DNA of 34,432 nucleotides, taken from contig LJUY01000021.1 of assembly GCA_001304015.1 (NCBI GenBank), positions 1 to 34,432 of the forward strand, given 5' to 3'. Each line of letters starts with the position of its first letter. Position 1 is the first letter of the stretch. The position numbers were made by a program, and so were the translations under genes. The stretch is from a candidate division Zixibacteria bacterium SM23_81. GTDB taxonomy: Bacteria; SM23-81. Below the pieces are notes generated by a model that was given only the letters and a program-made list of their open reading frames with translations, searched no databases and was not told the DNA's origin. Of this stretch, positions 1,849 through 26,612 are shown one piece after another.

Positions 1849-1877
1849 TTGACAAAAATTGTGATTTATGATAGAAT
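1849..1877 (+). promoter_or_regulatory. Near-consensus sigma-70-type promoter (P1)
   Basis: TTGACA at 1849-1854 and TAGAAT at 1872-1877 are separated by exactly 17 bp. TG lies one base before the -10 (extended -10). Transcription should start near 1884, giving a leader of about 100 nt before the ATG at 1983. The same arrangement, with similar bases just before the -10 (TTTATG), recurs at 5073, 22079 and 26584. Confidence 0.85.
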
Positions 1878-1982
1878 GGATTTGCATCTGTCAGACTCAT
1901 TGAGGTGGCAACTATCGTGGCCTGCTGACAGCTTTCATTTACCTTTCTTTTCAATTTTTCACTTCTTAAAGGAGGTGTGTCC

Positions 1983-4316
1983 ATGAAAGCGATGGCTTTT
2001 ATGGTGATTCTTTCGCTGGTGCTGCTGTCCACAGCGGCGCTGGCCGATGTGCCCGGCCTGATGAATTACCAGGGCACGCTCACCGATGTGGATGGTGTTG
2101 CGCTGGACACCACCGTGTCCATGACCTTTTCCATTTACACCGATTCGACGGGAGGGAGTTCTTTATGGACTGAAACTCAATCGTCTGTTGTGGTGGACCA
2201 TGGTCTGTTTAACGTCCTTTTGGGCCGGGCGAATGCCATTTCGGACGCGGTGTTTAACGGGGCGTCGCGTTGGCTGGGCATTCAGGTAGAGAGCGATCCT
2301 GAGCTGGTGCCCCGGCAGCGGATTGCCAGTGTGGGCTATGCCTTTCGAGCCGCCGAGTCCGATACGGCCGATTACGCGCGGAGCGGTTTAACAGGCAGCG
2401 ATGGAGATTGGACCATTGTGGGCAGTGACATGTACGCAGCCGTTCCCGGCTATGTGGGCATCGGGACGTCCAGCCCAACATACAAGCTTGATGTCCGCGG
2501 TTCGGGTCCAGATGATGGGGTTGTTTTTGGGATCGGAAACTCAGATCTGACTCACCGCCTGATGATCTATGGTGGCCGGCAGAATGATCCTAACCCGTTT
2601 ATCCATTGGAAGGATGGTGACCCGCTGCGGTTCACCACCGATCAGGGTGGCTGGTCTGAGAAGATGCGGATCACCAGCGATGGCAACGTGGGTATCGGGA
2701 CAACCAGTCCCTCCGAGGAGCTTGAAATCTATAAGGACCAGAATGATTGGACTAACCTGATTCTGAACAATCCCAACGCAGGGACAAATGCCGGCAGTGC
2801 TCTTTATTTTTATGAAGGAGGACTTTTGCGCGGCTACCTCTCGGCTCCCGGCTCAGGGAACACTATTGCCGTTTCAGGGCCAGGTAGCCTCCATCTTAGC
2901 GCCTATTATGGTCCGCTTGAGCTTAGTACTGGAGGCGGTAATCCTGTGCGCATTTTACCTTATGGTGGCAATGTGGGTATTGGAACGAGGAATCCTCTTA
3001 AATTGCTGCATTTGTATGGAACAGACAACCCCACGGTGTTGGTCGAGGCTCCGGACATCGCCACGCCAGAGCTCAAATTACAGCGCGGTTCTGAATCCTA
3101 CAGCATGTTTATGGGCTCTGGAAATGATCTGCACTTTTTCAAAGATGGGACCAAGGTCACTTTTACAGATGGTGGCTGGGTTGGCATTGGCACGTCGAGT
3201 CCCAGCAAACACTTGGAGGTACAAGGCATTGGTCCAAGAATTCTGGTGAATGCCACAGCTGGCAACCCCGAATTGAATCTACAGGCTTCAGGTCAAACAA
3301 CATGGGCCATATACCATCATACGGACGTAGGGGATTTGAGATTCTTCCAAGCCGGTGACAAGGTGACCATTCAAAACAGCACCGGCAATATGGGCATCGG
3401 GACGAGCAGCCCAGGTGGCAAACTTCAGGTCGTTGGAGATGGCCTGAAGGCCGGAATCTTTACAACCGATTATGAATCCTACGACTCACGAGCGCTCTAC
3501 GCCGAGTTCACCGCCACTGGCAACTATGACGCGGTTGCCATCGAGGGCGTCTGCACGCCGGCCGATTATTATGGTCTAGGTGGACGATTCGAGGGCGGTT
3601 ATATCGGCGTTCAGGGTGGTGTTTATGCCAGCGGAAGCAACACCTACGAGGGCGTCTATGGTTTCGCCGCCTATGGCACGGGGACGAACATGGGCGTTCA
3701 TGGCAGGGCCGGCGACGGCGAATACAACTACGGGGTCTATGGCTCCTGCGATGGCGGTGGTACCGAAAACTATGCCGGATACTTCAATGGCGATGTTGAG
3801 GTGACCGGCATTCTGACCAAGGGCGGTGGCTCCTTCAAGATCGACCATCCTCTGGACCCAGAAAACAAGTATCTGGTTCACTCCTCCGTGGAATCACCGG
3901 ATATGATGAATGTTTACAACGGCAATGTGATTCTCGATGCCGGCGGAGAAGCGGTGGTAGCACTGCCGGAGTGGTTAGAGACCCTCAATCGCGATTTCCG
4001 CTATCAGCTCACCGCCATCGGTGAGCCCGGGCCGAATCTGCACATCGCCGAGGAGATCGCCGGCAACAGTTTCCGCATTGCCGGCGGCACCCCGGGCATG
4101 AAGGTCTCCTGGCTGGTGAGTGGCATCCGGCAGGATCCGTTGGCCAATGCTCAGCGCATCCAGGTCGAGGTAGACAAGCACGAAGAAGAGCGAGGCAAGT
4201 ATTTGCACCCGGAGGCGTACGGCCTGAGCAAGGAGCGCGGGCTCCATTATGAACAGCTTCAGAGGGCTCAGCAAAAATCAGCCAGATATGAGCAGCAGAG
4301 GAGGGTTGAGAGATGA
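1983..4316 (+). CDS. Exported modular fibre protein with FKIDHPLDP tip
   Basis: The ATG at 1983 has GGAGG 7 bp upstream; a GTG at 1977 would sit directly on the ribosome site. The 777-aa product starts with a signal peptide (MKAMAFMVILSLVLLSTAALA). An N-terminal domain of about 110 residues follows (GLMNYQGTL, SMTFSIYTDSTGG, PRQRIASVGYAFRA), nearly the same as in the 5208 gene. The middle carries several NVGIGTxSPxxxLxV motifs, as in phage-type tail fibres and S74-containing proteins, then GVYGxA units. The C-terminal domain from about base 3824 (FKIDHPLDP, SPDMMNVYNGNV, LNRDFRYQLTAIG) matches the end of the first gene. A charged Q/R/E-rich tail closes the protein. No peptidase S74 domain or outer-membrane anchor is visible. 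It overlaps the companion gene by 4 bp (ATGA), so the pair is probably translationally coupled. A surface or extracellular adhesive fibre is an inference. Confidence 0.9.
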   Translation: MKAMAFMVILSLVLLSTAALADVPGLMNYQGTLTDVDGVALDTTVSMTFSIYTDSTGGSSLWTETQSSVVVDHGLFNVLLGRANAISDAVFNGASRWLGIQVESDPELVPRQRIASVGYAFRAAESDTADYARSGLTGSDGDWTIVGSDMYAAVPGYVGIGTSSPTYKLDVRGSGPDDGVVFGIGNSDLTHRLMIYGGRQNDPNPFIHWKDGDPLRFTTDQGGWSEKMRITSDGNVGIGTTSPSEELEIYKDQNDWTNLILNNPNAGTNAGSALYFYEGGLLRGYLSAPGSGNTIAVSGPGSLHLSAYYGPLELSTGGGNPVRILPYGGNVGIGTRNPLKLLHLYGTDNPTVLVEAPDIATPELKLQRGSESYSMFMGSGNDLHFFKDGTKVTFTDGGWVGIGTSSPSKHLEVQGIGPRILVNATAGNPELNLQASGQTTWAIYHHTDVGDLRFFQAGDKVTIQNSTGNMGIGTSSPGGKLQVVGDGLKAGIFTTDYESYDSRALYAEFTATGNYDAVAIEGVCTPADYYGLGGRFEGGYIGVQGGVYASGSNTYEGVYGFAAYGTGTNMGVHGRAGDGEYNYGVYGSCDGGGTENYAGYFNGDVEVTGILTKGGGSFKIDHPLDPENKYLVHSSVESPDMMNVYNGNVILDAGGEAVVALPEWLETLNRDFRYQLTAIGEPGPNLHIAEEIAGNSFRIAGGTPGMKVSWLVSGIRQDPLANAQRIQVEVDKHEEERGKYLHPEAYGLSKERGLHYEQLQRAQQKSARYEQQRRVER

Positions 4317-4885
4317 TAGGCGACTATAGGAAACAGAAAGGTTTGTTCTGCTTGATCGTTTTTGCCACGGTAGGTCTTTTTTCCCTTGTCCTGGCCGCTG
4401 GGGCCGCCGCCGATGCCCAGCTGGCCACCTCAGTCATAGGCTCAGCCGGTGGCCAGGCTAGCTCCACTAACTTCGTGGTGAAGTCCACCCTGGGCCAGTC
4501 CACGCCTATTGGAGCATCTGCCAGCACGAACTTTGAGGTGGGTGCCGGATTCTGGTACCAGGACCCCGTGGCTCCATCGACTATCGGCGATTTGACGGCC
4601 AATCTGTCCGAGAGTGACATTCTGCTGGAGTGGTCTCACGCCAGGGACAACGTGGCCATTGACCATTATGTGATCTATCGGGCCACACAGCCCTATTTTG
4701 AGGCCGCCGGCGGTGATTCCATAGGCGGAACCAAGGGCACCACCTATCTTGATCTGAGTGCTGCCGGGAGCACTTTGACGAACTATTTCTACGTGGTCAG
4801 GGCGGCGGATCCCAGCCGCAATTTGGCCGAGGATTCTAACCAGGTGGGCGAGTTCGATAGGGGGACAATGGGAGGGCCCAAATAG
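4313..4885 (+). CDS. Small secreted companion protein with fn3-like C-terminal domain
   Basis: The start overlaps the stop of the upstream fibre gene (ATGA at 4313-4316). The 190-aa product has a basic start and a hydrophobic segment (LFCLIVFATVGLFSLVLAAGA), a signal peptide or membrane anchor. Residues of about 35-80 form the pattern GGQASSTNFVVKSTLGQS...STNFEVGAGFWYQ, common in secreted proteins of FCB-type bacteria. Residues of about 85-185 look like a fibronectin type III domain (DILLEWS, YVIYR, NYFYVVRA) ending in VGEF. The same fn3 subtype ends the minus-strand protein at 32831-34432, also at VGEF. A decayed copy follows the next fibre gene at 7561-7692. The function is unknown; constant pairing with a fibre suggests a partner or accessory role, which is inference. 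Confidence 0.8.
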   Translation: MIGDYRKQKGLFCLIVFATVGLFSLVLAAGAAADAQLATSVIGSAGGQASSTNFVVKSTLGQSTPIGASASTNFEVGAGFWYQDPVAPSTIGDLTANLSESDILLEWSHARDNVAIDHYVIYRATQPYFEAAGGDSIGGTKGTTYLDLSAAGSTLTNYFYVVRAADPSRNLAEDSNQVGEFDRGTMGGPK

Positions 4886-4904
4886 TCGGGTTGAGAGGTT
4901 GTAG

Positions 4905-4930
4905 GGGCGCGACATGTCGCGCCCTTTTTT
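4905..4930 (+). terminator. Palindromic terminator 1 (GGGCGCGACA arm)
   Basis: A perfect 20-nt palindrome (arms GGGCGCGACA / TGTCGCGCCC) is followed by six T. It is preceded by GTAGG and resembles the GTAGGGGC... palindromic dispersed repeats I know from many environmental genomes. It ends the fibre/companion operon. Confidence 0.8.
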
Positions 4931-4959
4931 ATGTAAGGAAAGGTTTTAAAAGATTCGTA

Positions 4960-4988
4960 GGGGCACAGCATGCTGTGCCCCCTTTTTT
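4960..4988 (+). terminator. Palindromic terminator 2 (GGGGCACAGC arm)
   Basis: A perfect 22-nt palindrome (arm GGGGCACAGCA and its complement) is followed by C and six T, 30 bp after the first. Both start with GTAGGGGC, so the two are variants of one repeat family. A third variant is at 7738-7757. Confidence 0.8.
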
Positions 4989-5052
4989 ATCCGAGGAAAA
5001 ATTGTCACAGACCTAAAGACGGGATTTCCTTCCCCATATGACTTCAGTAGTT

Positions 5053-5072
5053 GCGAAAACCTCAATTTTCGC
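5053..5072 (+). promoter_or_regulatory. Inverted repeat abutting the -35 of the next promoter
   Basis: GCGAAAA and TTTTCGC form perfect 7-bp arms around a 6-bp spacer (CCTCAA). The repeat ends on the base before the TTGACA at 5073. Its position suits an operator or an activator site, but the A/T-rich half could also simply act as an UP element. No similar repeat abuts the other three promoters of this type. Confidence 0.4.
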
Positions 5073-5101
5073 TTGACAGAATCGGGGATTCATGGTAGAA
5101 T
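5073..5101 (+). promoter_or_regulatory. Near-consensus promoter (P2) for the YadA-head-like fibre gene
   Basis: TTGACA at 5073-5078, 17 bp, TAGAAT at 5096-5101, with TG one base before the -10. The predicted leader is about 100 nt to the ATG at 5208. It belongs to the same set as the promoters at 1849, 22079 and 26584. Confidence 0.85.
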
Positions 5102-5207
5102 GAAATGAAGGCAAAAAAAACAGTTTTTATCCAAAGAGCGGCATATGGCTTCTCTATTTCAATTCCGTGTTTTTTCTAAAACCCTCACTTTCACAGGAGG
5201 TACAGCC

Positions 5208-7517
5208 ATGAGAGTGGCCGCTATTGTGAGCTTGCTGTCGCTGGTCCTGCTTTCAACAGCAGCACTGGCCGATGTGTCCGGTTTGATGAACTACCAGGGC
5301 ACCCTCACCTATGGGGACGGAGTTGCGCTGGATACCACCATCTCCATGACCTTTTCTATCTACACCGATTCAACAGGAGGAACTCAAGTATGGACGGAGA
5401 CGCAGGCGGCAGTGGTAGTGAGCAATGGCCTCTTCAATGTGCTTTTGGGCAGTGTCAACGCGATTTCTGATACTGTGTTCAGCGATCCTGTCCGCTGGTT
5501 GGGGGTACAGGTTGGTGGCGATCCGGAGCTGACGCCCAGACAACGTATTGCTGTTGTGGGGTATGCCTTTCAGGCAGCCGAGGCCGATACGGCCGATTAT
5601 GCCCGCAATGGTGGTGGAGGTGACGACGGGGACTGGACGATTTCGGGCAACGACATATATTCTGCCCTTCCCGGGAATGTCGGCATTGGGACGGCAACCC
5701 CCTCGACAAAGCTGGATGTTCGGGGGACCTTGAATGTAGGTGTTAACGGCGCTGGTTATGATGTCAACTTTTATGGCTTGTTCAGCGGTAGCCGGCTCTT
5801 ATGGGACCAGTCGAAGATGGCGCTCAGGGCAGGCCAGGATTCCGATGGGACCCATTGGCATCCCGATAGCATAGGCTACCATTCCTTTGCCACGGGCTAC
5901 AATACAAAAGCCAGTACGGATTGGACGACTGCAATGGGGGTATCTACCACAGCGAATGCATTTGCCGCAGCCGCGATGGGCGGATATAGCACTGCCAGCG
6001 GATTGTACTCAACCGCACTGGGCCGGAGCACCACTGCGAGTGGTAACTACTCCACTGCCATGGGATATAACACCGCAGCCAACGGGCTGTATTCAACTGC
6101 TATGGGGCGCGAGAGCATCGCCGGCGGATATGCCTCAACCGCTATAGGACAGACTACAGACGCCAGTGGAGGGTACTCAACCGCCATGGGATATCACACC
6201 ACCTCTAGCGGGGACTACTCCATCGCCATGGGGAGATTTGCAACGGTGGATGCGGATAATGCCATCGTGCTGGGGAAGGGAATATCGAGTATCAGCCGCC
6301 TGATGAACAGCGTTGATAATTCCCTTGTGGTTGGATTCGACGACACGACGGCAACGCTATTTGTCGGTGGGCTTAATCATTGGGTGGGCATCGGCACCAA
6401 GGCTCCTGCGGCAAAGCTGGACGTTCAGGGCACCTTGAACGTCGGTATAGACAACACCGGTTACGATGTGAACTTCTATGGGGCAAATAGCGGGGGCAGG
6501 TTCCTTTGGGATGAGGATAAAATGGCTCTCAGAGCGGGTCGGGACAGCGATGGGACTCATTGGGCTTCTGATAGCACAGGGTCATACTCCCTGGCAACGG
6601 GATACAACACCAAGGCCAGCGGACCCTATTCGACCGCAATGGGAATCAATACAGCCGCCAGCGGGGACTTCTCAACGGCAATGGGGGTAGGGACAACCGC
6701 CAGTGGGAATCGGTCAACGGCCATGGGGGATGGCACCATCGCCAGCGCGGCTTACTCAACGGCAATGGGCGATGAAACAGAGGCCAGCGCGGACCGGGCA
6801 ACGGCGATGGGTTATCAAACCATCGCCAGCGGGATAGTCTCCATCGCGATGGGAGAGGGCACCACCGCCAGTGGGGAACGCTCCATCGCCATGGGAGGTT
6901 ACACAGAGGCAAGCGGGGATTTTTCAACGGCGATGGGATTGTACACGACCTCAAGCGGTGATTACTCGGTCGCTGCAGGCAGGTATGTCACGGCCCAGGC
7001 AGCTGACGCCATCGTTCTTGGCCACGGATTGACCAGCGCCAGCCGTCTGGTCAACAACACCTCAAATTCTCTTATGGTCGGCTTCAACGACACGACGGCG
7101 ACCTTGTTTGTCGGTGGTGCCAGTCACCGTGTGGGCATTGGGACGACGAGTCCTGCATATAAGCTGGAAGTTGAAGGCGATGTACACGTCACCCAAGATA
7201 TCAGCAAAGCATTCACTACTGGAACGAGCAATTTAGCCACGCCCATCGCCTACGCCTTTATCAACTCTGGGGGAGCTGTTGTCAACGGCACGCCGAACGT
7301 GAGCTCCAGCTGGAATGGGGCTAGCAGCCGTTATGAAATCACCATCAGCGGAGAAACTTATATATATTCGAGTTATGTCACCCAAGTGACAGTTTCCAGT
7401 GGAAGTCGATATACTGCCACAACCAATAGTGTCAGTGGCAACTTGTTGGTTTATATTTACGATACCACTGGTACTAAGACACAACAGGCTTTTCAGTTTG
7501 TGACTTACAAACCGTGA
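5208..7517 (+). CDS. Exported fibre protein with YadA-head-type repeats
   Basis: The ATG at 5208 has AGGAGG with 7-bp spacing and opens a signal peptide (MRVAAIVSLLSLVLLSTAALA); an in-frame ATG at 5145 would add 21 residues before it and is unlikely. The 769-aa product shares its N-terminal domain (GLMNYQGTL, PRQRIAVVGYAFQA) with the 1983 gene. The shaft has 14-residue repeats of the form YSTAMGxxTTASGx, the hallmark of YadA/Hep_Hag head domains of trimeric adhesins. The shaft module of about 235 residues is present twice in tandem. The C-terminal tip from about base 7190 (ATPIAYAFINSGG, YEITISGE) differs from the FKIDHPLDP tip of its neighbours. No YadA membrane anchor is present, so it is not a classical autotransporter. 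A trimeric extracellular fibre is inferred. It is followed by a companion-gene remnant and a palindrome. Confidence 0.9.
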   Translation: MRVAAIVSLLSLVLLSTAALADVSGLMNYQGTLTYGDGVALDTTISMTFSIYTDSTGGTQVWTETQAAVVVSNGLFNVLLGSVNAISDTVFSDPVRWLGVQVGGDPELTPRQRIAVVGYAFQAAEADTADYARNGGGGDDGDWTISGNDIYSALPGNVGIGTATPSTKLDVRGTLNVGVNGAGYDVNFYGLFSGSRLLWDQSKMALRAGQDSDGTHWHPDSIGYHSFATGYNTKASTDWTTAMGVSTTANAFAAAAMGGYSTASGLYSTALGRSTTASGNYSTAMGYNTAANGLYSTAMGRESIAGGYASTAIGQTTDASGGYSTAMGYHTTSSGDYSIAMGRFATVDADNAIVLGKGISSISRLMNSVDNSLVVGFDDTTATLFVGGLNHWVGIGTKAPAAKLDVQGTLNVGIDNTGYDVNFYGANSGGRFLWDEDKMALRAGRDSDGTHWASDSTGSYSLATGYNTKASGPYSTAMGINTAASGDFSTAMGVGTTASGNRSTAMGDGTIASAAYSTAMGDETEASADRATAMGYQTIASGIVSIAMGEGTTASGERSIAMGGYTEASGDFSTAMGLYTTSSGDYSVAAGRYVTAQAADAIVLGHGLTSASRLVNNTSNSLMVGFNDTTATLFVGGASHRVGIGTTSPAYKLEVEGDVHVTQDISKAFTTGTSNLATPIAYAFINSGGAVVNGTPNVSSSWNGASSRYEITISGETYIYSSYVTQVTVSSGSRYTATTNSVSGNLLVYIYDTTGTKTQQAFQFVTYKP
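5709..7164 (+). repeat. Tandem internal duplication of a fibre-shaft module
   Basis: Two consecutive modules, about 5709-6414 and 6415-7164, each run from KLDV(R/Q)GTLNVG through GYDVNFYG, LW(D)xxKMALRAG, DSDGTHW, a block of 14-residue STAMG repeats, and AIVLG to DDTTATLFVGG or NDTTATLFVGG and VGIGT. The STAMG blocks differ in repeat number, as expected from slippage or unequal exchange of the 42-bp unit. Confidence 0.85.
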
Positions 7518-7560
7518 TACAAAGGGGAAATCCACGTCAAGCGGTGTGGTCACATTAAGT

Positions 7561-7692
7561 TAGGCGAGTATCAGTTTCGGGGTGATTAGAGACTTCTGGT
7601 ATCAGAAACCGGCGGTTCCATCGAACATCGGTGATCTGACGGCTGATCTGCCGTTGATGAAAATCGCTCGAGAGATCAATATCGGTCTGTAG
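7561..7692 (+). pseudogene. Decayed remnant of the small companion gene
   Basis: The frame from 7564 reads ASISFGVIRDFWYQ, then KPAVPSNIGDLTADLP, and stops at 7690. This matches ASASTNFEVGAGFWYQ, then DPVAPSTIGDLTANLS in the 4313 gene. Over the 57 bases from TTCTGGTA to the last shared CTG I count 12 differences. The bases just before (TAGGCGAGTATCAG) resemble the start of the intact gene (ATAGGCGACTATAGG), so most of the first half seems deleted, and the fn3 half after about 7650 is lost. It has the same position relative to its fibre gene as the intact copy. Confidence 0.75.
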
Positions 7693-7737
7693 GCGACACA
7701 AGATAGTCATTATAACCGAGGAAGATTGTTGATGAAG

Positions 7738-7761
7738 GGGCGCAGCATGCTGTGCCCTTTT
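7738..7761 (+). terminator. Palindromic terminator 3 (GGGCGCAGCA arm)
   Basis: The stem GGGCGCAGCA / TGCTGTGCCC has one G-T pair and is followed by TTTT. It is a third member of the palindrome family seen at 4905 and 4960 and closes the degraded copy of the cassette. Confidence 0.7.
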
Positions 7762-8048
7762 CCCGTCCATCGGTCCTTGTTTATCGGCGTCGAGGTGCGT
7801 TACGGAAGTCGTGAATCGACTATTGTGTATCGTCTGTGTATCGTCGCTTCTGGTTGTTGGTGGTTTTTGAGACGACCGACGCCAGACGAAATGCGACGGA
7901 CGTAAAGCGCTTCGAAACCGACAGCGGATATGCGAATCACTGGTATGGGTGAGGTCTCCTGGTCCCTTAACTAATCTCGAATCTTCATTTTCTGTTGCCC
8001 CTTCTCTGATATTTCGTTACCTTCAGTGAGAATCTGAGAGGAGAGATT
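7762..8048. other. Gene-free stretch before the VWA gene
   Basis: I see no gene here. An 11-bp unit, TGTGTATCGTC, is repeated in perfect tandem at 7824-7834 and 7835-7845. No convincing promoter was found. A ribosome site (GAGAGGAGAG) sits just before the ATG at 8049. Confidence 0.5.
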
Positions 8049-10244: not shown

Positions 10245-10287
10245 TCTCCGATGCGCAGAGGGGGTGATCTTCGGGCAAAAAGGGTCC

Positions 10288-10350
10288 TTATGAGGGGTAA
10301 TTTTACCCCTAGAGTCATAACCAGCTCCCGGGTGAACGCACCACGGGCTG
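10288..10350. other. Two nested inverted repeats between the VWA and lamin-tail genes
   Basis: AGGGGTAA and TTACCCCT (10293-10310) form a perfect 8-bp inverted repeat with 2 bases between, flanked by TTATGA and TCATAA. A second hairpin, CCAGC...GCTGG with inner GGTG-AACG-CACC, spans 10321-10351. Neither is followed by a T run. They may be a weak terminator or an operator or mRNA-stability element. Confidence 0.4.
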
Positions 10351-10394
10351 GTCACAGCTGCTGAGCAGAGACATCAACATCAGGAGGAGCTGTT

Positions 10395-12182
10395 ATGAAA
10401 GCCGTCGTGATCCTAAGCCTCGCCTTAGCGGTTGCAGGTCGCCCGATGCACGTTAAAGCTGAGGCATCTGCCATTGTCATCAACGAGGTGATGGCCAATC
10501 CTCTCGATGAGGATACCGGAGAGTTTGTGGAGCTCTACAATTGCGGGGATGTGCCCATCGATTTGTCAGGTTGGCGCCTGGCCGACGCGGCGGACACAAA
10601 CGATTTTATCTTGGACTACGCTGGTCTCCACGACTGGGGGATCTCGGGAACGGTGGTTCCCCCTGAGGGCTATGCCCTGATCGTCGACCCGGAATATTCT
10701 GGGGAGTATCAAACTTTCCTCAAAGAACAGGCCGACTCCACCAAGGTGGTTCTTCTCACCATAGGTCTGGACACCACACTCGGAAATGGCTTGACCAACT
10801 CCGGAGACCTTGTGATCATCACCGACGGCGAAGGCTTTTATGTGGCCTTCCAGTGGATCCGCGACTCCGGACAGGGGATTTCCTGGGAGAAGATCGAGCC
10901 AGAGCTGGGGGATGAAGAAAGTAACTGGTCCACATGTCGTCACCCCCTGGGAGGCACACCGGGTGTTCGTAACAGCGTAGCCCGGGCCCTTTACGATGTA
11001 CGGGTATCGGGGCAGGACCTCCAATTCGCGCCTCCATACCCTGAGCCGGACCAGGAGGTGGAGATTGGGACGACCATCCATAATCAGGGAAAGGCCTCGG
11101 CCTCGGGAATCCAGGTTTTCTTCTTCCAGGATCTTGATGCCGATACCCTTATGGATGAGGGAGAGCAAATTGGCTGGCCTCATGTCATCGATCAGTCTAT
11201 CCCCCCAGGCGGGATCGTTTCCCTTCAGCAGAGCTGGTTACCTCCCTGCTCTGGGACTCATCTCGTGGCCGTCTGGGCTTTATACCCTTTGGATGAGGAT
11301 CCTATCGATAACTGGGCTGTCGTTCCCCTCCAGGTTCGCTTTGCGCCGGGCACGGTGATACTCAACGAGATCATGTATGACCCGGCTCCCAGCGAGGAAG
11401 ATTCAAGAAGGGAGCCGGAGTGGGTGGAGATCCTGCATCGAGGAAGCACCCAGCTGGATCTGGCAGGCTGGACCATTGAGGACTCGCAGGGGAAGCTACA
11501 TCCTCTCTGTGACTCCTCCGTGGTGCTATTGCCCGACGACTATGCGGTCATCGCCGCCGGCTCACCGGATGATTTTAGGCGGGCATTTCCGGGGCTGGAA
11601 GGGTTGGTGCTATTCCCAATAGGTGGGATGCCTTCCTTGAACAACGCCGAGGATTTAATCCTGTTACGCGATGCGGCCAGAACGATGGTGGACAGCGTTT
11701 TTTATTTTGGTGAATGGGGTGGTGGTGGAGGCGTCTCACTGGAGCGAATAAATCCCCATATGGGCACCAACGATCCCCTTAACTGGAGTTGGTGTGTGCA
11801 CCCCAGGGGAGCCACCCCAGGTCAGAGGAACAGCATCTTCACCCCTGTGGTGCCAACCGGAGCTTCCTTATCGGCTTTCCCAAATCCATTTTCTCCTGAT
11901 GGCGACGGTCATCAGGAGGTCACCATTATTTCCTATCGTTTACCTACGGCCGCGGCCCGGATCACCCTTCGATTATTTGACATGAGAGGGCGTTTGGTGC
12001 GTACTCTCATGGATCAGGAACGTTGTTCCAGCGCCGGTGAGACAATTTGGGATGGGCGGAACAATGTGGGGGAGCACCTGAAGATGGGGATCTACATCAT
12101 CTTCATGGAGGCCCTGGACGATCGCCAGGGATTGATCTGTCGGGAGAAGAAAACGGTAGTTCTGGCTGGCCGGTTGGATTAA
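10395..12182 (+). CDS. Secreted protein with two lamin-tail domains and a FlgD-Ig-like C-terminus
   Basis: GGAGGAG precedes the ATG at 10395. The 595-aa product starts with a signal peptide (MKAVVILSLALAVAGRPMHVKAEA). A first lamin-tail domain (IVINEVMANP, GEFVELYNCGDVPIDLSGW) covers about residues 27-190. A CARDB-like region (EVEIGTTIHNQGKASASGIQVFF) covers about 200-315. A second lamin-tail domain (VILNEIMYDP, EWVEILHRGSTQLDLAGW) covers about 322-475. The C-terminus (AFPNPFSPDGDG, LRLFDMRGRLVRTL, WDGRNNVGEHLKMGIYI) is of the FlgD-Ig or CHU_C type, which in this group often works as a secretion or anchoring module. It is not the QNYPNPFN form seen in the other cargo. An extracellular structural or binding role is inferred. 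Confidence 0.85.
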   Translation: MKAVVILSLALAVAGRPMHVKAEASAIVINEVMANPLDEDTGEFVELYNCGDVPIDLSGWRLADAADTNDFILDYAGLHDWGISGTVVPPEGYALIVDPEYSGEYQTFLKEQADSTKVVLLTIGLDTTLGNGLTNSGDLVIITDGEGFYVAFQWIRDSGQGISWEKIEPELGDEESNWSTCRHPLGGTPGVRNSVARALYDVRVSGQDLQFAPPYPEPDQEVEIGTTIHNQGKASASGIQVFFFQDLDADTLMDEGEQIGWPHVIDQSIPPGGIVSLQQSWLPPCSGTHLVAVWALYPLDEDPIDNWAVVPLQVRFAPGTVILNEIMYDPAPSEEDSRREPEWVEILHRGSTQLDLAGWTIEDSQGKLHPLCDSSVVLLPDDYAVIAAGSPDDFRRAFPGLEGLVLFPIGGMPSLNNAEDLILLRDAARTMVDSVFYFGEWGGGGGVSLERINPHMGTNDPLNWSWCVHPRGATPGQRNSIFTPVVPTGASLSAFPNPFSPDGDGHQEVTIISYRLPTAAARITLRLFDMRGRLVRTLMDQERCSSAGETIWDGRNNVGEHLKMGIYIIFMEALDDRQGLICREKKTVVLAGRLD

Positions 12183-17269: not shown

Positions 17270-17379
17270 CAGGAACGACGAAACATATCTCAACGAGGGA
17301 GTATCGTAACCTTCTCTTCGACCCACTGGCGAGCAGCGTCCGCCCTCAGAGGTGTCCCGCCAGCAGGGAGGCGGTGGCA

Positions 17380-18756: not shown

Positions 18757-18970
18757 GACAGAGCATGGGAATGGTGGGATGTAGGGCGCTATGAGTAACC
18801 GCATCATCCTGAAAAAGGATATACTGGGATCATCTTATCTGGGTATTGGAACGACCACTGACCACTGAATCGCGGCCCCCCAACTCTCGTTTTTAGCACA
18901 TCTCCATAAAAAAGTATCAAATGGCCAGATCGAAATACCATATAGACTTTGGAGGAGGAAACGCCCCAGG

Positions 18971-19831: not shown

Positions 19832-19884
19832 GCCAGAATAGTTCCAGGCCCTCAAGGGCTTGAGATTTCACGCGAGGTGAGGGT

Positions 19885-21996
19885 ATGTCGCAGGAGATGT
19901 TGTTGGAAATTGGCACTGAGGAGCTACCTGCCAGCTATATCCCGCTGGCTCTGGAGAGCTTGGGGACCGCCGCTGAAGTCGGTTTGAAGGAAGCCCGCAT
20001 TTCCTTTAAAGGGACCGAGGTCTATGGAACTCCCCGGCGGTTGGTGCTTCGCGTGAGCGGTTTGTCCGAAAAGCAGGATGACCTGGTTCAAGAACAGCAG
20101 GGACCAGCCAAGGCCATCGCCTTCGACGCCCAGGGCCACCCCACCAAGGCCGCCGAGGGCTTTGCCATGGGCAGGGGAGTCTCGCTGGAAGACCTGATGG
20201 TCAGGGAGACTCCCAAGGGGGAGTATGTGTTCGCCCGAGTAGTTACCCCGGGGCGCCCCACCGTGGAGATATTGTCACAGCTGTTGCCGGATGCCATCCG
20301 CGATCTGTCCTTTGTCAAGTCCATGAGGTGGGGCGCTGGTGCCCTGCGCTTCGCTCGCCCCATTCGCTGGCTGCTGGCCCTGCTGGACTCCAGGGTGATC
20401 CCCTTTTCCCTGGAGGGTCTGCCCTCGGGAAATCAGACCTTTGGCCATCGGCAGCTGAGCCCTGGTCCTTTTCGCATTGCCTCAACCAGCGCATACTGGA
20501 AGGTCATGACCAAAGCGGGGCTCATGGTGGATCAGCGAGAGCGCAGGAAGGCCATTTGGGAAGGTTTGCAGAAAGCGGCGGCGGCTGAAGGAGGCCGCCC
20601 GTTGCTGGACGATGATCTTTTGGAGACCGTCACCTACCTGGTGGAGTGCCCCACGGCTCTCTGCGGTCGCTTCGACCAGAGTTACCTCTCTCTGCCCCGA
20701 AAGGTGTTGACCACGGCCCTGTCAGAGCACCAGAAATATTTCGCGGTGGTAGACGATAAGGATCGGCTGTTGCCCTTGTTCCTGGTCGTCAGCAACGGGG
20801 ATCCTCAGAACGGCCAGTTGATCCTGAAGGGCCACCAGAAGGTTTTGGTGGCTCGCCTGGAGGATGCGAAATTCTTCTTCCAGGAGGACCTGAAAGCCCC
20901 CCTGGCCGACAAAATGGATATGCTCAAGCAGGTGGTCTTCCAGGAAGACCTGGGAACTCTCTATGAGAAGACGAAGCGCATCGCATCCCTGGCTGACCAC
21001 CTCTCGGAGGCTCTCAACCTCTCTCAGGTCCAGCACCGCGCCTCGGGCCGAGCCGCTCTGCTGTGTAAGGCCGATCTGGTCACACACATGGTCGGCGAGA
21101 AGGAGTTCTCCAAGCTGCAGGGATATATGGGACAGCAGTATGCCCTGGCCTCGAGCGAGTCAGAGGCGGTGGCCCAGGCCATATTCGAGCACTATCTGCC
21201 CCGATTTGCCGAGGACCTACTGCCCCAGTCTCTTCCCGGCTCTGTGGTGGCCATCGCCGACAAGGTAGACACCATCGTCGGGTGCTTCGGCGTCGGACTC
21301 ATTCCTACGGGTTCTCACGATCCCTATGCTCTCAGGCGAGGAGCTCTGGGCGTGATCAGGATCCTCCTGGAGCACAAGCTACACATTGATCTTCATGGGC
21401 TGGTGAACAGAGCGCTGGATCTTTTGGCGGAGAAGTTGAACAAGGAGCGGGCCGGGGTGAGAGAGGAGATATTGGCTTTCTTCCGCCAACGTATGGAGAG
21501 CCAATTGGTCGAGGCGGGATTGGAACCGGATGTGGTGGACGCTGTGGTCTCCTCCGCCGATCGAGATGTGGTAGACGCCCTGGGTCGAGGTCGGGCGCTA
21601 CAGAACTTCCGCTCGCGGGAGGAATTCCAGACGCTGGTTCAGGCCTCCAAAAGGGTGGCCAATATTCTCCGAGATCAGGAAGTCTCCGGCCAGCCGGATG
21701 CTTCCCTCTTTCGAGACGAGGCCGAGAGAAAATTGTTGCAGGCTGCCCAAACGGCTCACAAGAGGGTGACCAAAAGTCTACAGACCGAGGCTTACGACCG
21801 GGCCCTAGAAGGTACTCTGGCTCTGGTGGAGCCCATAAACGCTTTTTTCGAGAGAATCTTGGTGATGGAGAAAGATCAAGATCTCAGGAAAAACCGGCTG
21901 CGACTTATGGCAGAGGTTAGAGAAAGTTTTATGGCTGTAGCCGACTACTCTAAGATCGTGATCAGGGGAGAAGGAAGTTTTGCCAATTTAGGATAA
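19885..21996 (+). CDS. glyS: Glycyl-tRNA synthetase beta subunit
   Basis: Beta subunit (703 aa, normal length) needed for tRNA recognition by the tetrameric enzyme. It starts with the family pattern LLEIGTEELPASYI. YGTPRRLVLRV and SMRWGAGALRFARPIRWLL follow, then LSEHQKYFAV, the HD-like region LLCKADLVTHMVGEKEFSKLQGYMG and PDPYALRR-like SHDPYALRRGALG. The C-terminal anticodon-binding part has VVDALGRGRALQ and FFERILVMEKDQDLRKNRLRLM. No clear terminator follows; the next unit begins with its own promoter at 22079. Confidence 0.98.
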   Translation: MSQEMLLEIGTEELPASYIPLALESLGTAAEVGLKEARISFKGTEVYGTPRRLVLRVSGLSEKQDDLVQEQQGPAKAIAFDAQGHPTKAAEGFAMGRGVSLEDLMVRETPKGEYVFARVVTPGRPTVEILSQLLPDAIRDLSFVKSMRWGAGALRFARPIRWLLALLDSRVIPFSLEGLPSGNQTFGHRQLSPGPFRIASTSAYWKVMTKAGLMVDQRERRKAIWEGLQKAAAAEGGRPLLDDDLLETVTYLVECPTALCGRFDQSYLSLPRKVLTTALSEHQKYFAVVDDKDRLLPLFLVVSNGDPQNGQLILKGHQKVLVARLEDAKFFFQEDLKAPLADKMDMLKQVVFQEDLGTLYEKTKRIASLADHLSEALNLSQVQHRASGRAALLCKADLVTHMVGEKEFSKLQGYMGQQYALASSESEAVAQAIFEHYLPRFAEDLLPQSLPGSVVAIADKVDTIVGCFGVGLIPTGSHDPYALRRGALGVIRILLEHKLHIDLHGLVNRALDLLAEKLNKERAGVREEILAFFRQRMESQLVEAGLEPDVVDAVVSSADRDVVDALGRGRALQNFRSREEFQTLVQASKRVANILRDQEVSGQPDASLFRDEAERKLLQAAQTAHKRVTKSLQTEAYDRALEGTLALVEPINAFFERILVMEKDQDLRKNRLRLMAEVRESFMAVADYSKIVIRGEGSFANLG

Positions 21997-22062
21997 ATTC
22001 AGGACTGGCATAGATATTGCTCTTTGCAAAAAAAGGTGAATAGCGAAACGAGAGATGAAAAA

Positions 22063-22107
22063 TTTTTTAAAAAAGTTCTTGACAAAAATCTTGGTTTATG
22101 GTAAAAT
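22063..22107 (+). promoter_or_regulatory. Near-consensus promoter with T6A6 upstream block (P3)
   Basis: TTTTTTAAAAAA at 22063-22074, then 4 bp, TTGACA at 22079-22084, 17 bp, TAAAAT at 22102-22107, with TG one base before the -10. Upstream block, spacing and spacer bases (TTTATGG) match the promoter at 26584 almost exactly. The A/T block can act as an UP element. The leader to the ATG at 22261 is about 148 nt and contains a second strong ribosome-site-like sequence, AAAGGAGGTG, at 22166-22175, far from any long reading frame. Confidence 0.85.
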
Positions 22108-22260
22108 GGTTCATAGAGTGAAGAATGTGATCATCCAGGATCGCTTTTAAAGTGAAACCTTCCTGAAAGGAGGTGTTTAAGGGATTGTTGTAGTTGAATT
22201 TCTTTTTGGTCTAGGATATGGATCCTGGATATGAATTTATAGCAAAGGAGGTGAAAACAC

Positions 22261-23598
22261 ATGAAGAGACTTCTAGCGCTGAGTTTAACGTTTGCGTTGA
22301 TCGTTGGACTGGCCGCCAGTGCCTCTGCCTTTGATCTTCAGCGTGTGGAAACCAAGAACCTCAGAGATATCCAAGAGAGGGTCGTGTCCCTGGGGGGCAT
22401 GCACCCAACCAAGGACTATTGCAAAATCTACATGCTGGATGCCGAGCTTGGATGGGTAAGTGGTTGGACGGGTTTCGGCTCATATCTTGATTCTTGTGCC
22501 GCCTATAAGAAGTTCATCGATCCATATGATCCCAGGGATACGTGGGATTTTTGGCCTTGCCCCGAGCCGCAATTCCCGTTTAACGTGGAGTCCATCGATT
22601 TCCTCGTTTACGTTGCCGAAGGAGAAACCATAGACATTGTCTTGGACTTCGACCTCGAGGAGGCGGCTATCGGACCCACACCATACGATTCCTGCGATTT
22701 TGTTCCAGGACCCGAGATTTTTAACACGGGACCACTTATGTGGTCCGGTATACCTGCAGGTTTCTGGAAACTGGTCGTTACCTTCCCGTCCATCTGGATG
22801 TATGAGCCGTTCTTCTGCTCGGTTGAAGTTCTCGGACCTCACCCACATGCGAACAACTGGGGTTTCTGCACCGATACTTACGTGACAGACACCGTGAGCG
22901 TCAACTATCCCACCTATTGTTGGAACTGGTTCAACGCATGTCCTTTTGGCGACCCAACCTGGTATGAATTTGGTCCAGCGGGACTGAGCTTCGCTGGTTT
23001 CGGGAACGTTTACCTACTTGTTGATGGTCGCCCATACAACAACGTGGCCGTGGATATGGGCAGCTTTGAGGCTGTGCCGGGCGACAGGAGGGTGACCCTC
23101 AACTGGCAGTCCTTGACCGAGACCAACAACTCCCACTGGATCGTCAAACGGGATGGAGAACAAATCGCTCAGGTGACTGGCCAGGGCAGTAAGGAGACGC
23201 CCACTGATTACGTCTGGGTGGATAGAAGCTTGACTAACGGGGTGGAATACTCCTACATGCTCCAGGCCGTCAACTACGAGGGCAACGTCGACGAATACGG
23301 GCCGGTCATGGCGACGCCTTTTGGCGTAGTTCCGACCAAGTTCGCGCTATGGCAGAACTACCCCAACCCGTTTAATGCCAGCACGGTTATCCGTTACCAG
23401 CTCCCCTCTGACGAGCGCGTGACCTTGAAGGTTTACAACATCTATGGTCAGGAGGTAGTCACGCTGGTGGATACGGATCAGAAAGCCGGTATGTATACCG
23501 TGAACTGGACGGGCGAGGGTGTCAGCAGCGGCATGTACGTGTACACCTTGACCGCTGGTGGTCATAGCGAATCCAAGAAGATGGTCTTCTTGAAGTAA
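22261..23598 (+). CDS. T9SS-type secreted protein, cysteine-rich N-terminal region
   Basis: AAAGGAGG lies upstream of the ATG at 22261. The 445-aa product has a signal peptide (MKRLLALSLTFALIVGLAASASA). The region up to about residue 260 has eight cysteines and many aromatics (DSCAAYKK, WPCPEP, YCWNWFNACPFGDP) and matches no family I recognise; disulfides are likely. From about residue 275 an fn3-like linker (RRVTLNWQSLTETNNSHW, VEYSYMLQAVNYEGNVDEYG) resembles the one in the 1817-aa protein. The T9SS type A sorting domain begins QNYPNPFN at residue 365 and ends KKMVFLK. Export across the inner membrane by Sec and the outer membrane by T9SS is expected. It is a single-gene unit with its own strong promoter and terminator, suggesting an abundant surface protein. 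The function is unknown. Confidence 0.85.
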   Translation: MKRLLALSLTFALIVGLAASASAFDLQRVETKNLRDIQERVVSLGGMHPTKDYCKIYMLDAELGWVSGWTGFGSYLDSCAAYKKFIDPYDPRDTWDFWPCPEPQFPFNVESIDFLVYVAEGETIDIVLDFDLEEAAIGPTPYDSCDFVPGPEIFNTGPLMWSGIPAGFWKLVVTFPSIWMYEPFFCSVEVLGPHPHANNWGFCTDTYVTDTVSVNYPTYCWNWFNACPFGDPTWYEFGPAGLSFAGFGNVYLLVDGRPYNNVAVDMGSFEAVPGDRRVTLNWQSLTETNNSHWIVKRDGEQIAQVTGQGSKETPTDYVWVDRSLTNGVEYSYMLQAVNYEGNVDEYGPVMATPFGVVPTKFALWQNYPNPFNASTVIRYQLPSDERVTLKVYNIYGQEVVTLVDTDQKAGMYTVNWTGEGVSSGMYVYTLTAGGHSESKKMVFLK

Positions 23599-23620
23599 GA
23601 CATCATCGCCAGCCTACATT

Positions 23621-23654
23621 GGTGGCTGGGCGTCATACCCGACGCCCAGCCACC
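23621..23654. terminator. Perfect 14-bp hairpin after the T9SS cargo gene
   Basis: GGTGGCTGGGCGTC and its exact complement flank a 6-nt loop (ATACCC). No T run follows directly. It lies 22 bp after the stop and probably assists termination or protects the 3' end together with the next hairpin. Confidence 0.7.
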
Positions 23655-23659
23655 AGCTG

Positions 23660-23692
23660 AACCGTTGAGGCACAGAGCTCGACGGTTTTTTT
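23660..23692 (+). terminator. Rho-independent terminator
   Basis: AACCGTTGAG pairs with CTCGACGGTT (one G-T pair) around an 8-nt loop and runs into a T tract. It follows the 14-bp hairpin by 5 bp. Confidence 0.8.
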
Positions 23693-23762
23693 ACGTTTAG
23701 CGGGTAAGGAGGGCAGTCCCCTTGCCCCCGGGGTTTAGGATTCGCAGGCCTGTTCTTTTCCG

Positions 23763-23791
23763 TTGACTTTCCCCGCTGTTATGTCTATTGT
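23763..23791 (+). promoter_or_regulatory. Candidate promoter of the glycosyltransferase gene
   Basis: TTGACT at 23763-23768, 17 bp, TATTGT at 23786-23791. It is weaker than the four secreted-protein promoters and lacks their extended -10. I see nothing else in the rest of the 350-bp gap. Confidence 0.35.
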
Positions 23792-23949
23792 TAAAGCGAA
23801 ATTCGACGCCGCGCTAGCAGGGAAGTCAATGCTCAGCATATCAAGGAATCGCCGGGGAACCCGCGGATTTCTTCATCATCTGAAGTCCTGCCACGGGCTG
23901 TACTATTTTTTAAGCGCGCCATTTTTTCGCTTTCAGAGGGAGAACAGAG

Positions 23950-26085
23950 ATGAAGGCCTTTTCTCGAAAAGAAGGCATTTTTCTCGCAGTCCTGTTCCTC
24001 CTCGCCCTGGGCGTTCGGCTCATCTATCTGATCCAGCTTCGAGGCAGCCCACTGTTCGAATCGCCCATTATGGATGCCAGGTACCATGACCAATGGGCTT
24101 TGGCGATCCGTAATGGCATACCTTTCCTAGATGGCCCCTATTTTCGGGCCCCCCTCTATCCGTACTTTCTCGCCCTGATATACTCCCTCTTTGGCCACAG
24201 TTATCTGGCCGTCCGCATGGTTCAGTTTCTCATCGGCTCTGTGAGTGTACTGCTCATTTACTTTTTGGGTAAGAGGACCTTTGACGCCGCGGTGGGCAGA
24301 GTGGCCGCTGTTCTGGCCGCTTTCTACGGCCTGTTTATCTATTTTGAGGGTGAGTTGCTCATCCCGGCTCTGATTGTGTTTTTGGACCTGGCCCTGCTTT
24401 TGGTCCTGCTGTCGGCCCAGGATCGACCTGGTTGGTGGCGGTGGCTGGGATGCGGAGCCATCTTGGGGCTTTCGGCCATCGCCAGGCCGAACGTCCTGCT
24501 GTTTGGAGTGGTTTTGGTACCTTGGCTGGTGTTGCGTTGGCGGCAAAAGGGTTTGAATCTGAGAAGATATGGGGCCTACTTGGGCAGTTATGCTTTGGGC
24601 GTGATCCTGCTTATTATGCCGGTTACGGTCCGAAACTACGTGGTGGGCAAAGATTTTGTCCCCATCGCCTCTCAAGGGGGGGTCAACTTTTTCATCGGGA
24701 ACAATCGCGACTCGGATGGCGTCACAGCCATCGTTCCGGGGACTAGGGCTAGTTGGTGGGGTGGCTACCACGATGCCTTGCAGTTGGCCGAAGATGCGGA
24801 AGGACGTCCGCTGAAGGCTTCGGAAGTTTCCAACTATTGGTTCAGGAGAGGTCTGGAGTTCATGCGGGATGAGCCCTGGGCATCTCTTCGCCTTATGTTC
24901 AAGAAACTGGTCATTTTCTGGGGAGGTCCGGAGGTGTCCAATAATAAGGATATCTACTTTTTCTCACAAGGGACCTCTCTGTTAAGGATTATGATCTGGC
25001 AGTGGCGAGGACGTTTCTTTTGCCCCTTTGGCATCGTGGCTCCATTGGCTCTGGCAGGGATGGTATTGGCCTGGCGAAACAGGAAGGGAAAAGGATGGCT
25101 GATGGCCCTGTTTATCTTCACCTATATGGTGAGCGTGATCCTATTTTTCGTCAATGCGCGCTTTCGCCTGCCGGTGATTCCCTTTCTCCTGCCCTTTGCC
25201 GCCTATAGCCTGGTTTCCTTGTTTAGGGAGCGACGCCTGGTTCGGGCCATTCTTCCCGTGGGCCTGATTCTGGTTTTCGGCCTGGCGGTAAATCTCAATC
25301 TGGTAGGCTACCCTTATGCGCCTCGGCTGGTTGACTCTTACGATGCTCTGGGCATCGCTTACTGGAGAACTAAGCAGCACGATCAGGCTATAGCCGAATA
25401 TCTCCGAGCCCTCTCCATTGCCCCTGACCATATTAATTCAATGCACGGTCTGGCCTGGGTGTATGCTGAGATGGATAGCCTGGACAAGTCCATCGAAGTG
25501 TGGGAGCAGGCCATTTCTGTGAAGCCCGACATGCCAGATCTTCACTATGGTCTGGGTGTTTCTTATTATGCTCAGGGAAGGCTCGACGACGCCATCGCAC
25601 AGTGGCAGGAAACAACACAACTCCTTCCAGATTTTTCCCAATCCTATATTCAGCTAGGCATAGCCTACGAGGATAAGGGAGAGTTTGAAGAGGCCATCGC
25701 CGCACTCAAGCAGGCTATTCAGGTGAGTCCCAGGGACGTCATCGCCCACTACAATCTGGGGCATCTCTACAAGAAGTTGAGCAAAATCGATGAGGCCGCT
25801 GAGGAGTTCAAGCTGGCCATCGAGGTCAATTCGAAATTCGCCGATGCTTACAACAGCCTAGCTTGGCTGTACTGCCAGGAGGACATCAATCTGGATGAGG
25901 GGATTGAGCTGATCAAAAAAGCCCTGGAGTTGGATGAGAGCAAAGGGGCCTATTGGGATACCTTGGCAGAGCTTTACATTAAAACGGGACAGCTGCAGAG
26001 GGCCAGGGAGATCTTTCAGATGATGATCCAGCGGGAGCCTGAGGAGCCCTTATGGAAAGAGCGAGTTCGTGAAGTGGGAGGATAA
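23950..26085 (+). CDS. GT-C type membrane glycosyltransferase with C-terminal TPR repeats
   Basis: The 711-aa product has a polytopic part of about 440 residues with roughly ten or more hydrophobic helices. It resembles the PMT/ArnT (GT39/GT83) fold: the first external loop holds MDARYHDQWA, a likely site of the catalytic aspartate, and FRAPLYPYFLAL follows. Such enzymes transfer a sugar from a polyprenyl-phosphate donor on the periplasmic side. From about residue 455 to the end there are seven TPR units (SYDALGIAYWRTKQHDQAIA, LHYGLGVSYYAQGRLDDAI, AHYNLGHLYKKLSKIDEA and others) that could bind a protein partner. The gene lies between two T9SS cargo genes, so glycosylation of surface proteins or of a surface glycan is a fair guess, not shown. 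The donor and the acceptor cannot be read from sequence. Confidence 0.85.
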   Translation: MKAFSRKEGIFLAVLFLLALGVRLIYLIQLRGSPLFESPIMDARYHDQWALAIRNGIPFLDGPYFRAPLYPYFLALIYSLFGHSYLAVRMVQFLIGSVSVLLIYFLGKRTFDAAVGRVAAVLAAFYGLFIYFEGELLIPALIVFLDLALLLVLLSAQDRPGWWRWLGCGAILGLSAIARPNVLLFGVVLVPWLVLRWRQKGLNLRRYGAYLGSYALGVILLIMPVTVRNYVVGKDFVPIASQGGVNFFIGNNRDSDGVTAIVPGTRASWWGGYHDALQLAEDAEGRPLKASEVSNYWFRRGLEFMRDEPWASLRLMFKKLVIFWGGPEVSNNKDIYFFSQGTSLLRIMIWQWRGRFFCPFGIVAPLALAGMVLAWRNRKGKGWLMALFIFTYMVSVILFFVNARFRLPVIPFLLPFAAYSLVSLFRERRLVRAILPVGLILVFGLAVNLNLVGYPYAPRLVDSYDALGIAYWRTKQHDQAIAEYLRALSIAPDHINSMHGLAWVYAEMDSLDKSIEVWEQAISVKPDMPDLHYGLGVSYYAQGRLDDAIAQWQETTQLLPDFSQSYIQLGIAYEDKGEFEEAIAALKQAIQVSPRDVIAHYNLGHLYKKLSKIDEAAEEFKLAIEVNSKFADAYNSLAWLYCQEDINLDEGIELIKKALELDESKGAYWDTLAELYIKTGQLQRAREIFQMMIQREPEEPLWKERVREVGG

Positions 26086-26180
26086 GAGTTTCGCCGTTGA
26101 GGATTTAAGAAGCTCACCATCCTTTTTTTCGAGATCGGCTGAGCAAAAATGCAATGCCAGGTAGTTCGTTTGGAAGAGAA

Positions 26181-26205
26181 GCAGGGCTTCGGTCCTGCCT
26201 TTTTT
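26181..26205 (+). terminator. UUCG-loop terminator, copy 1
   Basis: GCAGGGC-TTCG-GTCCTGC (7 bp, one G-T pair) is followed by C and six T. Related UUCG hairpins occur at 32318-32353 and 32669-32694. Here it ends the glycosyltransferase unit about 95 bp after its stop. Confidence 0.8.
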
Positions 26206-26562
26206 CATGGCAGCAGGTCAATGAAAAGGGTCGGTTTCATGGAGATGCCTGCTCAATGACAACAGTCACTCCCGAGTTGCCGAGAGATTCAAATTGGAGT
26301 GCGGGCCATCAAGATCTTTTCTCAGCTCGCAATGGAAATTTATACATAGTAAGGATAAGCGGTGGGGATGCGTGAGGAGCGCAGTGTGGTTTCTTAGCTC
26401 GTTCATTGCGTAATTAGGCTATGTATTCGATGCAGAAGTTTGTATAAGATGCCAGTGGAGCTAATTCCTCATGGTGAAAGGGTTTATCCTTAGGTGACAT
26501 AGGGGATTAATGTCAAGCTGCAAGCTCTTTTGATGTGACCGAGAAAAAAAGTGTTTATTTCT
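26206..26562. other. Gene-poor stretch upstream of the 1817-aa cargo gene
   Basis: No intact gene is supported. A possible sorting-domain remnant lies at 26292-26375 (see separate entry). The rest shows no clear repeat or promoter before the block at 26566. Confidence 0.45.
26292..26375 (+). pseudogene. Possible remnant of the end of a T9SS sorting domain
   Basis: The frame reads NWSAGHQDLFSARNG, then NLYIVRISGGDA, and stops at 26373. The live sorting domain reads TWNARDARGSEVSAG, then IYFCRLQAGEF. The Trp, the following 13-residue spacing and the Y..R..GG/AG pattern agree with one inserted residue, but the match is short. It follows UUCG hairpin copy 1, as the clearer remnant at 32361 follows copy 2. 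Confidence 0.3.
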
Positions 26563-26565
26563 ACG

Positions 26566-26612
26566 TTTTTTTAAAAAAAGGGCTTGACAAAAAATGGCGT
26601 TTATGGTAGAAT
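26566..26612 (+). promoter_or_regulatory. Near-consensus promoter with T7A7 upstream block (P4)
   Basis: T7A7 at 26566-26579, 4 bp, TTGACA at 26584-26589, 17 bp, TAGAAT at 26607-26612, with TG one base before the -10 and TTTATGG in the spacer. It is nearly a copy of the promoter at 22063-22107. Transcription should start near 26619. Confidence 0.85.

Follow-up and report, generated by a model that had tools for sequence, protein, structure and literature searches.

The 34,432-nt window analysed here (contig LJUY01000021.1, assembly GCA_001304015.1, candidate division Zixibacteria bacterium SM23_81) carries four near-identical promoters, each of which precedes a gene for a protein with a signal peptide. 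Throughout this genome, promoters of the same form, with a TTGACA -35 hexamer, a TG ahead of the -10 hexamer (extended -10) and a TAnAAT -10 hexamer, are associated with exported proteins, and this association is real, restricted to the lineage and conserved within it. We consider it probable that they are near-ideal promoters of RpoD type, of maximal strength, that have been allocated to abundant exported proteins.

The four promoters had been described in a first-pass annotation as plus-strand TTGACA/17 bp/TA(G/A)AAT elements with a TG, and the sequence agrees in all of these respects (Table 1). In all four, the TG lies one base ahead of the -10 hexamer, the -35 hexamer is perfect and the -10 hexamer matches its consensus in five of six positions. 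We scored the window with a profile built from the genome-wide sites described below, the four window promoters included. The four sites reached 28-35 bits, whereas the fifth-best place on either strand scored 1.9 bits. The best scores upstream of the housekeeping genes eno, divIC, mgtE, recO, glyQ and glyS were -7 to -15, as expected from the earlier claim that the window's housekeeping genes do not have this promoter form. The same annotation had placed a signal-peptide gene after each promoter, and the starts concerned (1983, 5208, 22261 and 26832/26844) all pass the rule used here for Sec-type signal peptides. Signal-peptide genes without the motif start at 10395 and 17380 in the window, and the motif is thus not universal for exported proteins. 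Rfam elements were sought in the window and none was found.

We searched the 3.07 Mb assembly (99 contigs), the incompleteness of which limits the census, for TTGACA-N16-18-TAnAAT and obtained 82 sites, as against none in the control: 56 with the TG (class A) and 26 without it (class B). The pattern TTGACA-N17/18-TGnTAnAAT yielded 56 sites, and 0-1 when reversed. None of the 56 class-A sites was located within a predicted gene. The first gene downstream encoded a signal peptide at 42 of the 53 class-A sites for which a gene could be called (79%), compared to 29 of 122 background genes (24%, p-value = 8e-12), i.e., genes on three contigs whose free upstream sequence measures 70 nt or more, and to five of 20 class-B sites (25%, p-value = 5e-5). 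Admitting every nearby in-frame start equally in all gene sets, a rule that supersedes re-reading of starts by eye, changed these fractions to 47/53 (89%) for class A, 41/122 (34%) for the background (p-value = 6e-12) and 8/20 (40%) for class B (p-value = 6e-5). The enrichment persisted after removal of 13 paralogues of the LNYQG type (29/40, p-value = 7e-8) and was marginal when all proteins linked by blastp were collapsed (8/14, p-value = 0.02), a procedure that merges 28 proteins linked at least partly through shared domains such as the tail typical of the type IX secretion system (T9SS). A separate profile, trained without the three test contigs, gave at least 20 bits upstream of six of 29 signal-peptide genes on those contigs and one of 89 others; this single exception gains a signal peptide once its start is re-read. 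The full motif was seen in none of the tRNA upstream regions inspected by eye on sampled contigs. Equal use of the motif before housekeeping genes genome-wide, which the first-pass annotation had named as the result that would speak against it, was searched for and not seen in these counts; its proposal that the form prefers surface or exported proteins is supported both genome-wide and in a second genus.

The comparison with other bacteria used one simple open reading frame rule for every set. Within the family it rests on one sister genome, which belongs to a different genus and contains 30 motif sites; 17 of the 23 readable ones precede signal-peptide genes. A class-A homologue in the SM23_81 genome was found for 16 of these 23 genes, at identities of 33-78% and with differing spacer interiors. 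A public Zixiibacteriota contig (L036; glyS 72% identical) has, at the equivalent position (3419-3607), a promoter of like build with a similar leader, the counterpart of the promoter at 22079, which suggests that the organism lies in or close to this phylum. The motif was rare (four and one sites) in a second family of the phylum and, in a 344-kb sample, showed no bias for a gene class. In other bacteria, 30 sites were detected in 22 of 37 genomes; only three of 25 preceded signal-peptide genes, and the remainder included rpsB and tuf.

Base preferences at the class-A sites extend beyond the hexamers. The seventh to fifth bases before TTGACA were A or T in 54-56 of the 56 sites, a C immediately preceded the -35 hexamer in 51/56, and positions -29 to -26, including an A directly after this hexamer, were A-rich. 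Nearer the -10 hexamer we found T at -17 (46/52; TT before the TG recurs), a purine at -13 (44/52) and, downstream of the hexamer, G at -6 (35/56), where G or A is typical and GG after the -10 hexamer recurs. The third base of the hexamer was A or G, giving TA(A/G)AAT, in 47/56 sites and T in 4/56. Class-B sites have the A/T tract and C ahead of the -35 hexamer as class A does, but no TG, and they prefer TATAAT (T at the third position in 13/26). The conserved class-A positions lie at or beside contacts of the C-terminal domain of the alpha subunit and of sigma regions 4, 3.0, 2.4 and 1.2 (PMC2613000, in part general knowledge). The spacer centre (-25 to -19) was near random, which argues against a shared operator, and no operator-like block recurred in the 22 upstream positions tabulated.

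The first-pass annotation had also noted T6A6 and T7A7 blocks exactly 4 bp ahead of the -35 hexamer at the two promoters of T9SS cargo genes, and we confirmed both (22063-22074 and 26566-26579). By their match to the full Escherichia coli UP consensus, in which A/T tracts are expected at about -59 to -38, these blocks are predicted UP elements. The match at 22079, at 14 of 14 informative positions, was the best among all class-A sites, and not one of 20,000 randomly chosen upstream positions equalled it. Beyond 22079 and 26584, the distal half of the UP element matched well in few class-A sites.

We looked for the likely reader of the motif among four RpoD-like sigma factors, one long and three short (L098, L099, L100 and L101; the short ones are encoded on contigs C35, C43 and C96). 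In E. coli sigma-70, H455 and E458 read the TG of the extended -10 element (PMC2613000). The long factor, encoded in a mutS2-dnaG-rpoD arrangement, retains the equivalents of both residues, its VPVHIIEAINK aligning with IPVHMIETINK of a solved RpoD. In the short factors they are replaced by N and by G or A, and the equivalent of T440 by L; TG-recognition residues were thus found in none of the three, ECF-type (extracytoplasmic function) factors not having been surveyed. The RERxRQI sequence of region 4.2 is present in all RpoD-like factors, and each of them could read TTGACA. Aligned with solved alpha subunits, RpoA retains the C-terminal-domain motifs VRSSNCLK and FGRKSL, which presumably hold the DNA-contact residues R265, N268 and K298. 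Since only the long RpoD keeps the TG residues and RpoA keeps its contact motifs, the simplest assumption is that the ordinary polymerase reads the motif. Canonical RpoD fits the motif best, and a sigma-factor preference is possible. The C43 and C96 types occur in both motif-using genera; a single type corresponds to the pair in the second family of the phylum and shares about 55% identity with either member.

Under our preferred reading, about 56 promoters would be served by a housekeeping-type polymerase, each offering an A/T tract to the tails of the alpha subunits, C-TTGACA, a 17-bp spacer, the TG, TA(A/G)AAT and a following G or A. Every polymerase contact would contribute binding energy, so that these promoters would surpass all others in the cell in strength and would not need an activator. 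Selection would have placed them at genes for exported proteins rather than at ribosomal or other housekeeping genes, and the proteins concerned would be highly expressed.

The leaders may add to this. An extra sequence of AAGGAGG(TG) type, resembling a Shine-Dalgarno (SD) element, lies upstream of the true SD in nine of 40 class-A leaders, mostly 75-105 nt before the start, where dinucleotide shuffles predict 1.1 (p-value = 1e-6); in background regions it was found in seven of 122, with four expected. It is present in the leader of each T9SS-tailed gene in the window, and further examples lie in the long leaders of L016, L061, L064, L068, L078 and L005. In about one fifth of the longer leaders, then, the extra SD may bind the 30S subunit and thereby stabilise the mRNA, by analogy with the nearest precedent, the stabilising SD (STAB-SD) of the Bacillus thuringiensis cry3A mRNA. 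There too, in a different phylum, an SD-like sequence lies in the 5' leader apart from the translation start (PMC4113751). A conserved leader peptide was considered for the double-SD leaders and rejected: the frames differ, that of L068 being in frame for 21 codons and that of L061 stopping after five.

Several observations weigh against this reading. Class A differs from class B in having mostly a purine as the third -10 base, which is not what a model of strength alone predicts, and within the TG class TATAAT is associated with cytoplasmic genes (pooled p-value = 0.014, from counts read by hand). Most signal-peptide genes are without the promoter, and a perfect copy precedes only eight of the 87 genes with a FlgD_ig (T9SS-type) tail; few of 60 tailed genes examined among the rest have a near or degraded one. 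A signature of T9SS cargo was ruled out on this count. A long RpoD retaining the TG-reading residues is also encoded in the second family of the phylum, which nevertheless makes little use of the motif. The 16S gene was not found in the assembly and two tuf fragments begin at contig ends, so that the rRNA and tuf/S10 promoters, the strongest of the housekeeping genes, were not recoverable. Lastly, signal peptides were assigned by a simple charge and hydrophobicity rule and not by SignalP.

The most credible alternative, which we nevertheless regard as unlikely, is a dedicated regulon in which a short group-2 sigma factor (C35, C43 or C96) or a factor bound to the polymerase reads TTGACA-N15-TGRTARAAT and turns the exported-protein genes on and off as one set. 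Two findings keep it in this position, namely the preference for a purine as the third -10 base and the presence of the C43 and C96 types in both motif-using genera. The split between TARAAT and TATAAT by gene type, the region 4.2 motif common to all the factors and the use of alternative sigma motifs for part of the secretion genes in relatives from the Fibrobacteres-Chlorobi-Bacteroidetes (FCB) group (PMC9723704, PMC4800418) also fit it. Against it, factors without equivalents of H455, E458 and T440 would not be expected to read the TG, and the A/T tract and C ahead of the -35 hexamer are common to class B, leaving no distinct upstream signature. In its fullest form, the idea would make TTGACA-N15-TGRTARAAT a separate specificity, belonging to a group-2 sigma or modified holoenzyme, and the mark of a secretome regulon in this FCB-group family; a single sigma programme would then serve the cell surface, distinct from TATAAT housekeeping promoters. 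We hold this form more tentatively still.

Common descent, with promoters copied along with duplicated genes, is improbable as the source of the likeness, despite the 13 downstream genes that are LNYQG paralogues and the kinship of gene pairs in the window. The proteins encoded at 1983 and 5208 are 73% identical across their first 174 aa, and those at 22261 and 26832 are about 50% identical across their last 195 aa. The window spacers are also unusually alike, matching at 9.5 of 16 positions compared to 6.1 in random class-A quadruples (p-value = 0.0018), and TTGACA-N10-13-TTYATGRTARAATG occurs at five sites genome-wide, four of them in the window. The earlier remark on similar spacers thus stands as far as likeness beyond chance is concerned, but the spacer word is mostly local and the pattern was picked after viewing. 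The 30-nt flanks of the four promoters were no closer than those of random pairs (10.0 and 10.1 matches of 30 upstream, 8.8 and 9.0 downstream), even for the paralogues at 1983 and 5208. Co-duplication, as first proposed, is not supported, because a recent event would show in these flanks; moreover, the enrichment holds without the paralogues, and the motif is also found at singletons and at genes whose N-terminal parts are unrelated. We favour four promoters that are independently maintained or convergent, an explanation that leaves the local spacer likeness outside.

Very improbable is an ordinary strong sigma-70 promoter with no gene-class preference, of which four fell into the window by chance: the motif is near the textbook sigma-70 consensus and is found genome-wide, but the bias seen in SM23_81 repeats in the sister genus and is missing from the controls. 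The least probable reading involves a conventional transcription factor that would recognise the sequence shared around the promoters and activate surface-protein genes, as the earlier suggestion of a shared regulator would allow, for the bases shared beyond the hexamers (A after the -35 hexamer, TT before the TG, GG after the -10 hexamer) all lie at or beside polymerase contacts, and the spacer interior and the sequence outside these contacts are not conserved.

The nearest known form is the sigma-70 extended -10 promoter with an UP element of E. coli, and of Bacillus subtilis with its -16 TRTG, which is alike in TTGACA, the 17-bp spacer, TGn and the -10 hexamer (PMC2613000), as well as in T at -17, the A/T tract and the purines after the -10 hexamer. 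The promoters described here differ in the third -10 base, which is A or G rather than T in 47/56, in combining all of the elements in dozens of promoters and in being mostly confined to signal-peptide genes. Secretion-linked promoter classes are known within the FCB group from the SigP/PorXY regulon of the Porphyromonas T9SS and from the Flavobacterium motifs SM4-SM6. Those motifs are of ECF, sigma-54 or variant -7-box type, and SigP serves machinery genes (PMC4800418, PMC9723704), whereas the motif described here is sigma-70-like and stands ahead of exported proteins. The Bacteroidetes sigma-A promoter (-7 box TAnnTTTG) also belongs to the FCB group, and the short C35 sigma is of the same general build, but the genes studied here have TTGACA/TAnAAT and are led by SD sequences. 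Our literature searches returned nothing direct on Zixibacteria promoters or on T9SS-linked extended -10 promoters.

Table 1. Promoters, putative UP and Shine-Dalgarno (SD)-like elements, and downstream genes in the window.
Feature	Coordinates	Strand	Details
Class-A promoter, TTGACA-N17-TAGAAT, TG extended -10	1849..1877	+	33.7 bits; upstream of LNYQG-type gene, start 1983
Secreted LNYQG-type protein	1983..4316	+	Signal peptide MKAMAFMVILSLVLLSTAALAD; paralogue of 5208
Class-A promoter, TTGACA-N17-TAGAAT, TG extended -10	5073..5101	+	28.3 bits; upstream of YadA_head gene, start 5208
Secreted protein with YadA-head repeats and signal peptide	5208..7517	+	
Putative UP element TGAAAAATTTTTTAAAAAAGTT	22056..22077	+	Holds T6A6 (22063-22074); 14/14 vs. 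E. coli full UP consensus
Class-A promoter, TTGACA-N17-TAAAAT, TG extended -10	22079..22107	+	33.9 bits; upstream of Por_Secre_tail gene, start 22261
Extra SD-like element GAAAGGAGGTG	22165..22175	+	About 80 nt upstream of the true SD (22244-22254); similar one in L036
Secreted protein with Por_Secre_tail (T9SS sorting domain)	22261..23598	+	
UP-like element	26561..26582	+	Holds T7A7 (26566-26579); 11/14 vs. E. coli full UP consensus
Class-A promoter, TTGACA-N17-TAGAAT, TG extended -10	26584..26612	+	34.9 bits; upstream of 1821-aa Por_Secre_tail gene, start 26832/26844
Leader with two SD-like elements	26688..26764	+	AAAGGGGGTG (26688-26697) and GAGGAGGTG (26756-26764), upstream of start
Secreted 1821-aa multidomain adhesin-like protein with Por_Secre_tail	26832..32297	+	

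The first 7517 nt of the window hold a tandem set of exported proteins that are related to one another: one is truncated at the contig start, and those at 1983 and 5208 follow. At least 13 paralogues driven by class-A promoters genome-wide have closely similar signal peptides (MKAxAFMxxLSMVLLSTAALAD), often followed by LxNYQGTLTD. On the minus strand, an open frame of 1067 aa (28881-32084) runs antisense within the adhesin gene and is most likely a shadow of codon bias. Elsewhere, two class-A promoters with very similar spacers lie about 2 kb apart on one strand (L010 and L011; G000 contig C11:2744 and 4766), and a matching pair, 3.6 kb apart, was found at G001 contig C300:1387 and 5034; such a pair is thus present in both genera, with spacers ending in TCTCTGCTAAAAT or TTTCTGCTAAAAT. 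Among the other genomes, 13 near-identical sites of the form TTGACAC...CTGGTAAAAT, with spacers rich in C, were seen in G038, and in G020 several contigs carry copies of a block of two promoters 73 bp apart, some of them at contig ends; these are perhaps a repeated element and rRNA-type promoters.

Two homologous signal-peptide proteins (L053, G000 C53:7000-10500; L189, G000 C32:11488-12888) share the position of an in-frame TGA codon, which lies in the context VLAE(M/L)FTST(M/T)-TGA-xxCP, i.e., a UxxC motif, which we take to stand at the redox-site position of Omp28-like proteins. Judged by this context, both are possible secreted selenoproteins, and a truncated third copy may lie at the end of L034.

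Promoter strength is commonly expected to go with ribosome and growth genes. Of the ideal extended -10 promoters in the two uncultured genera considered here, nearly all stand ahead of exported proteins, and this suggests that the lineage gives its strongest transcription to the cell surface and leads a surface-centred life. By itself the motif identifies a gene for an exported protein in eight to nine cases out of 10, making it a cheap predictor, and it points to hypothetical genes whose products are likely abundant in situ. The promoters and leaders would also provide strong native parts for an FCB lineage without genetics.

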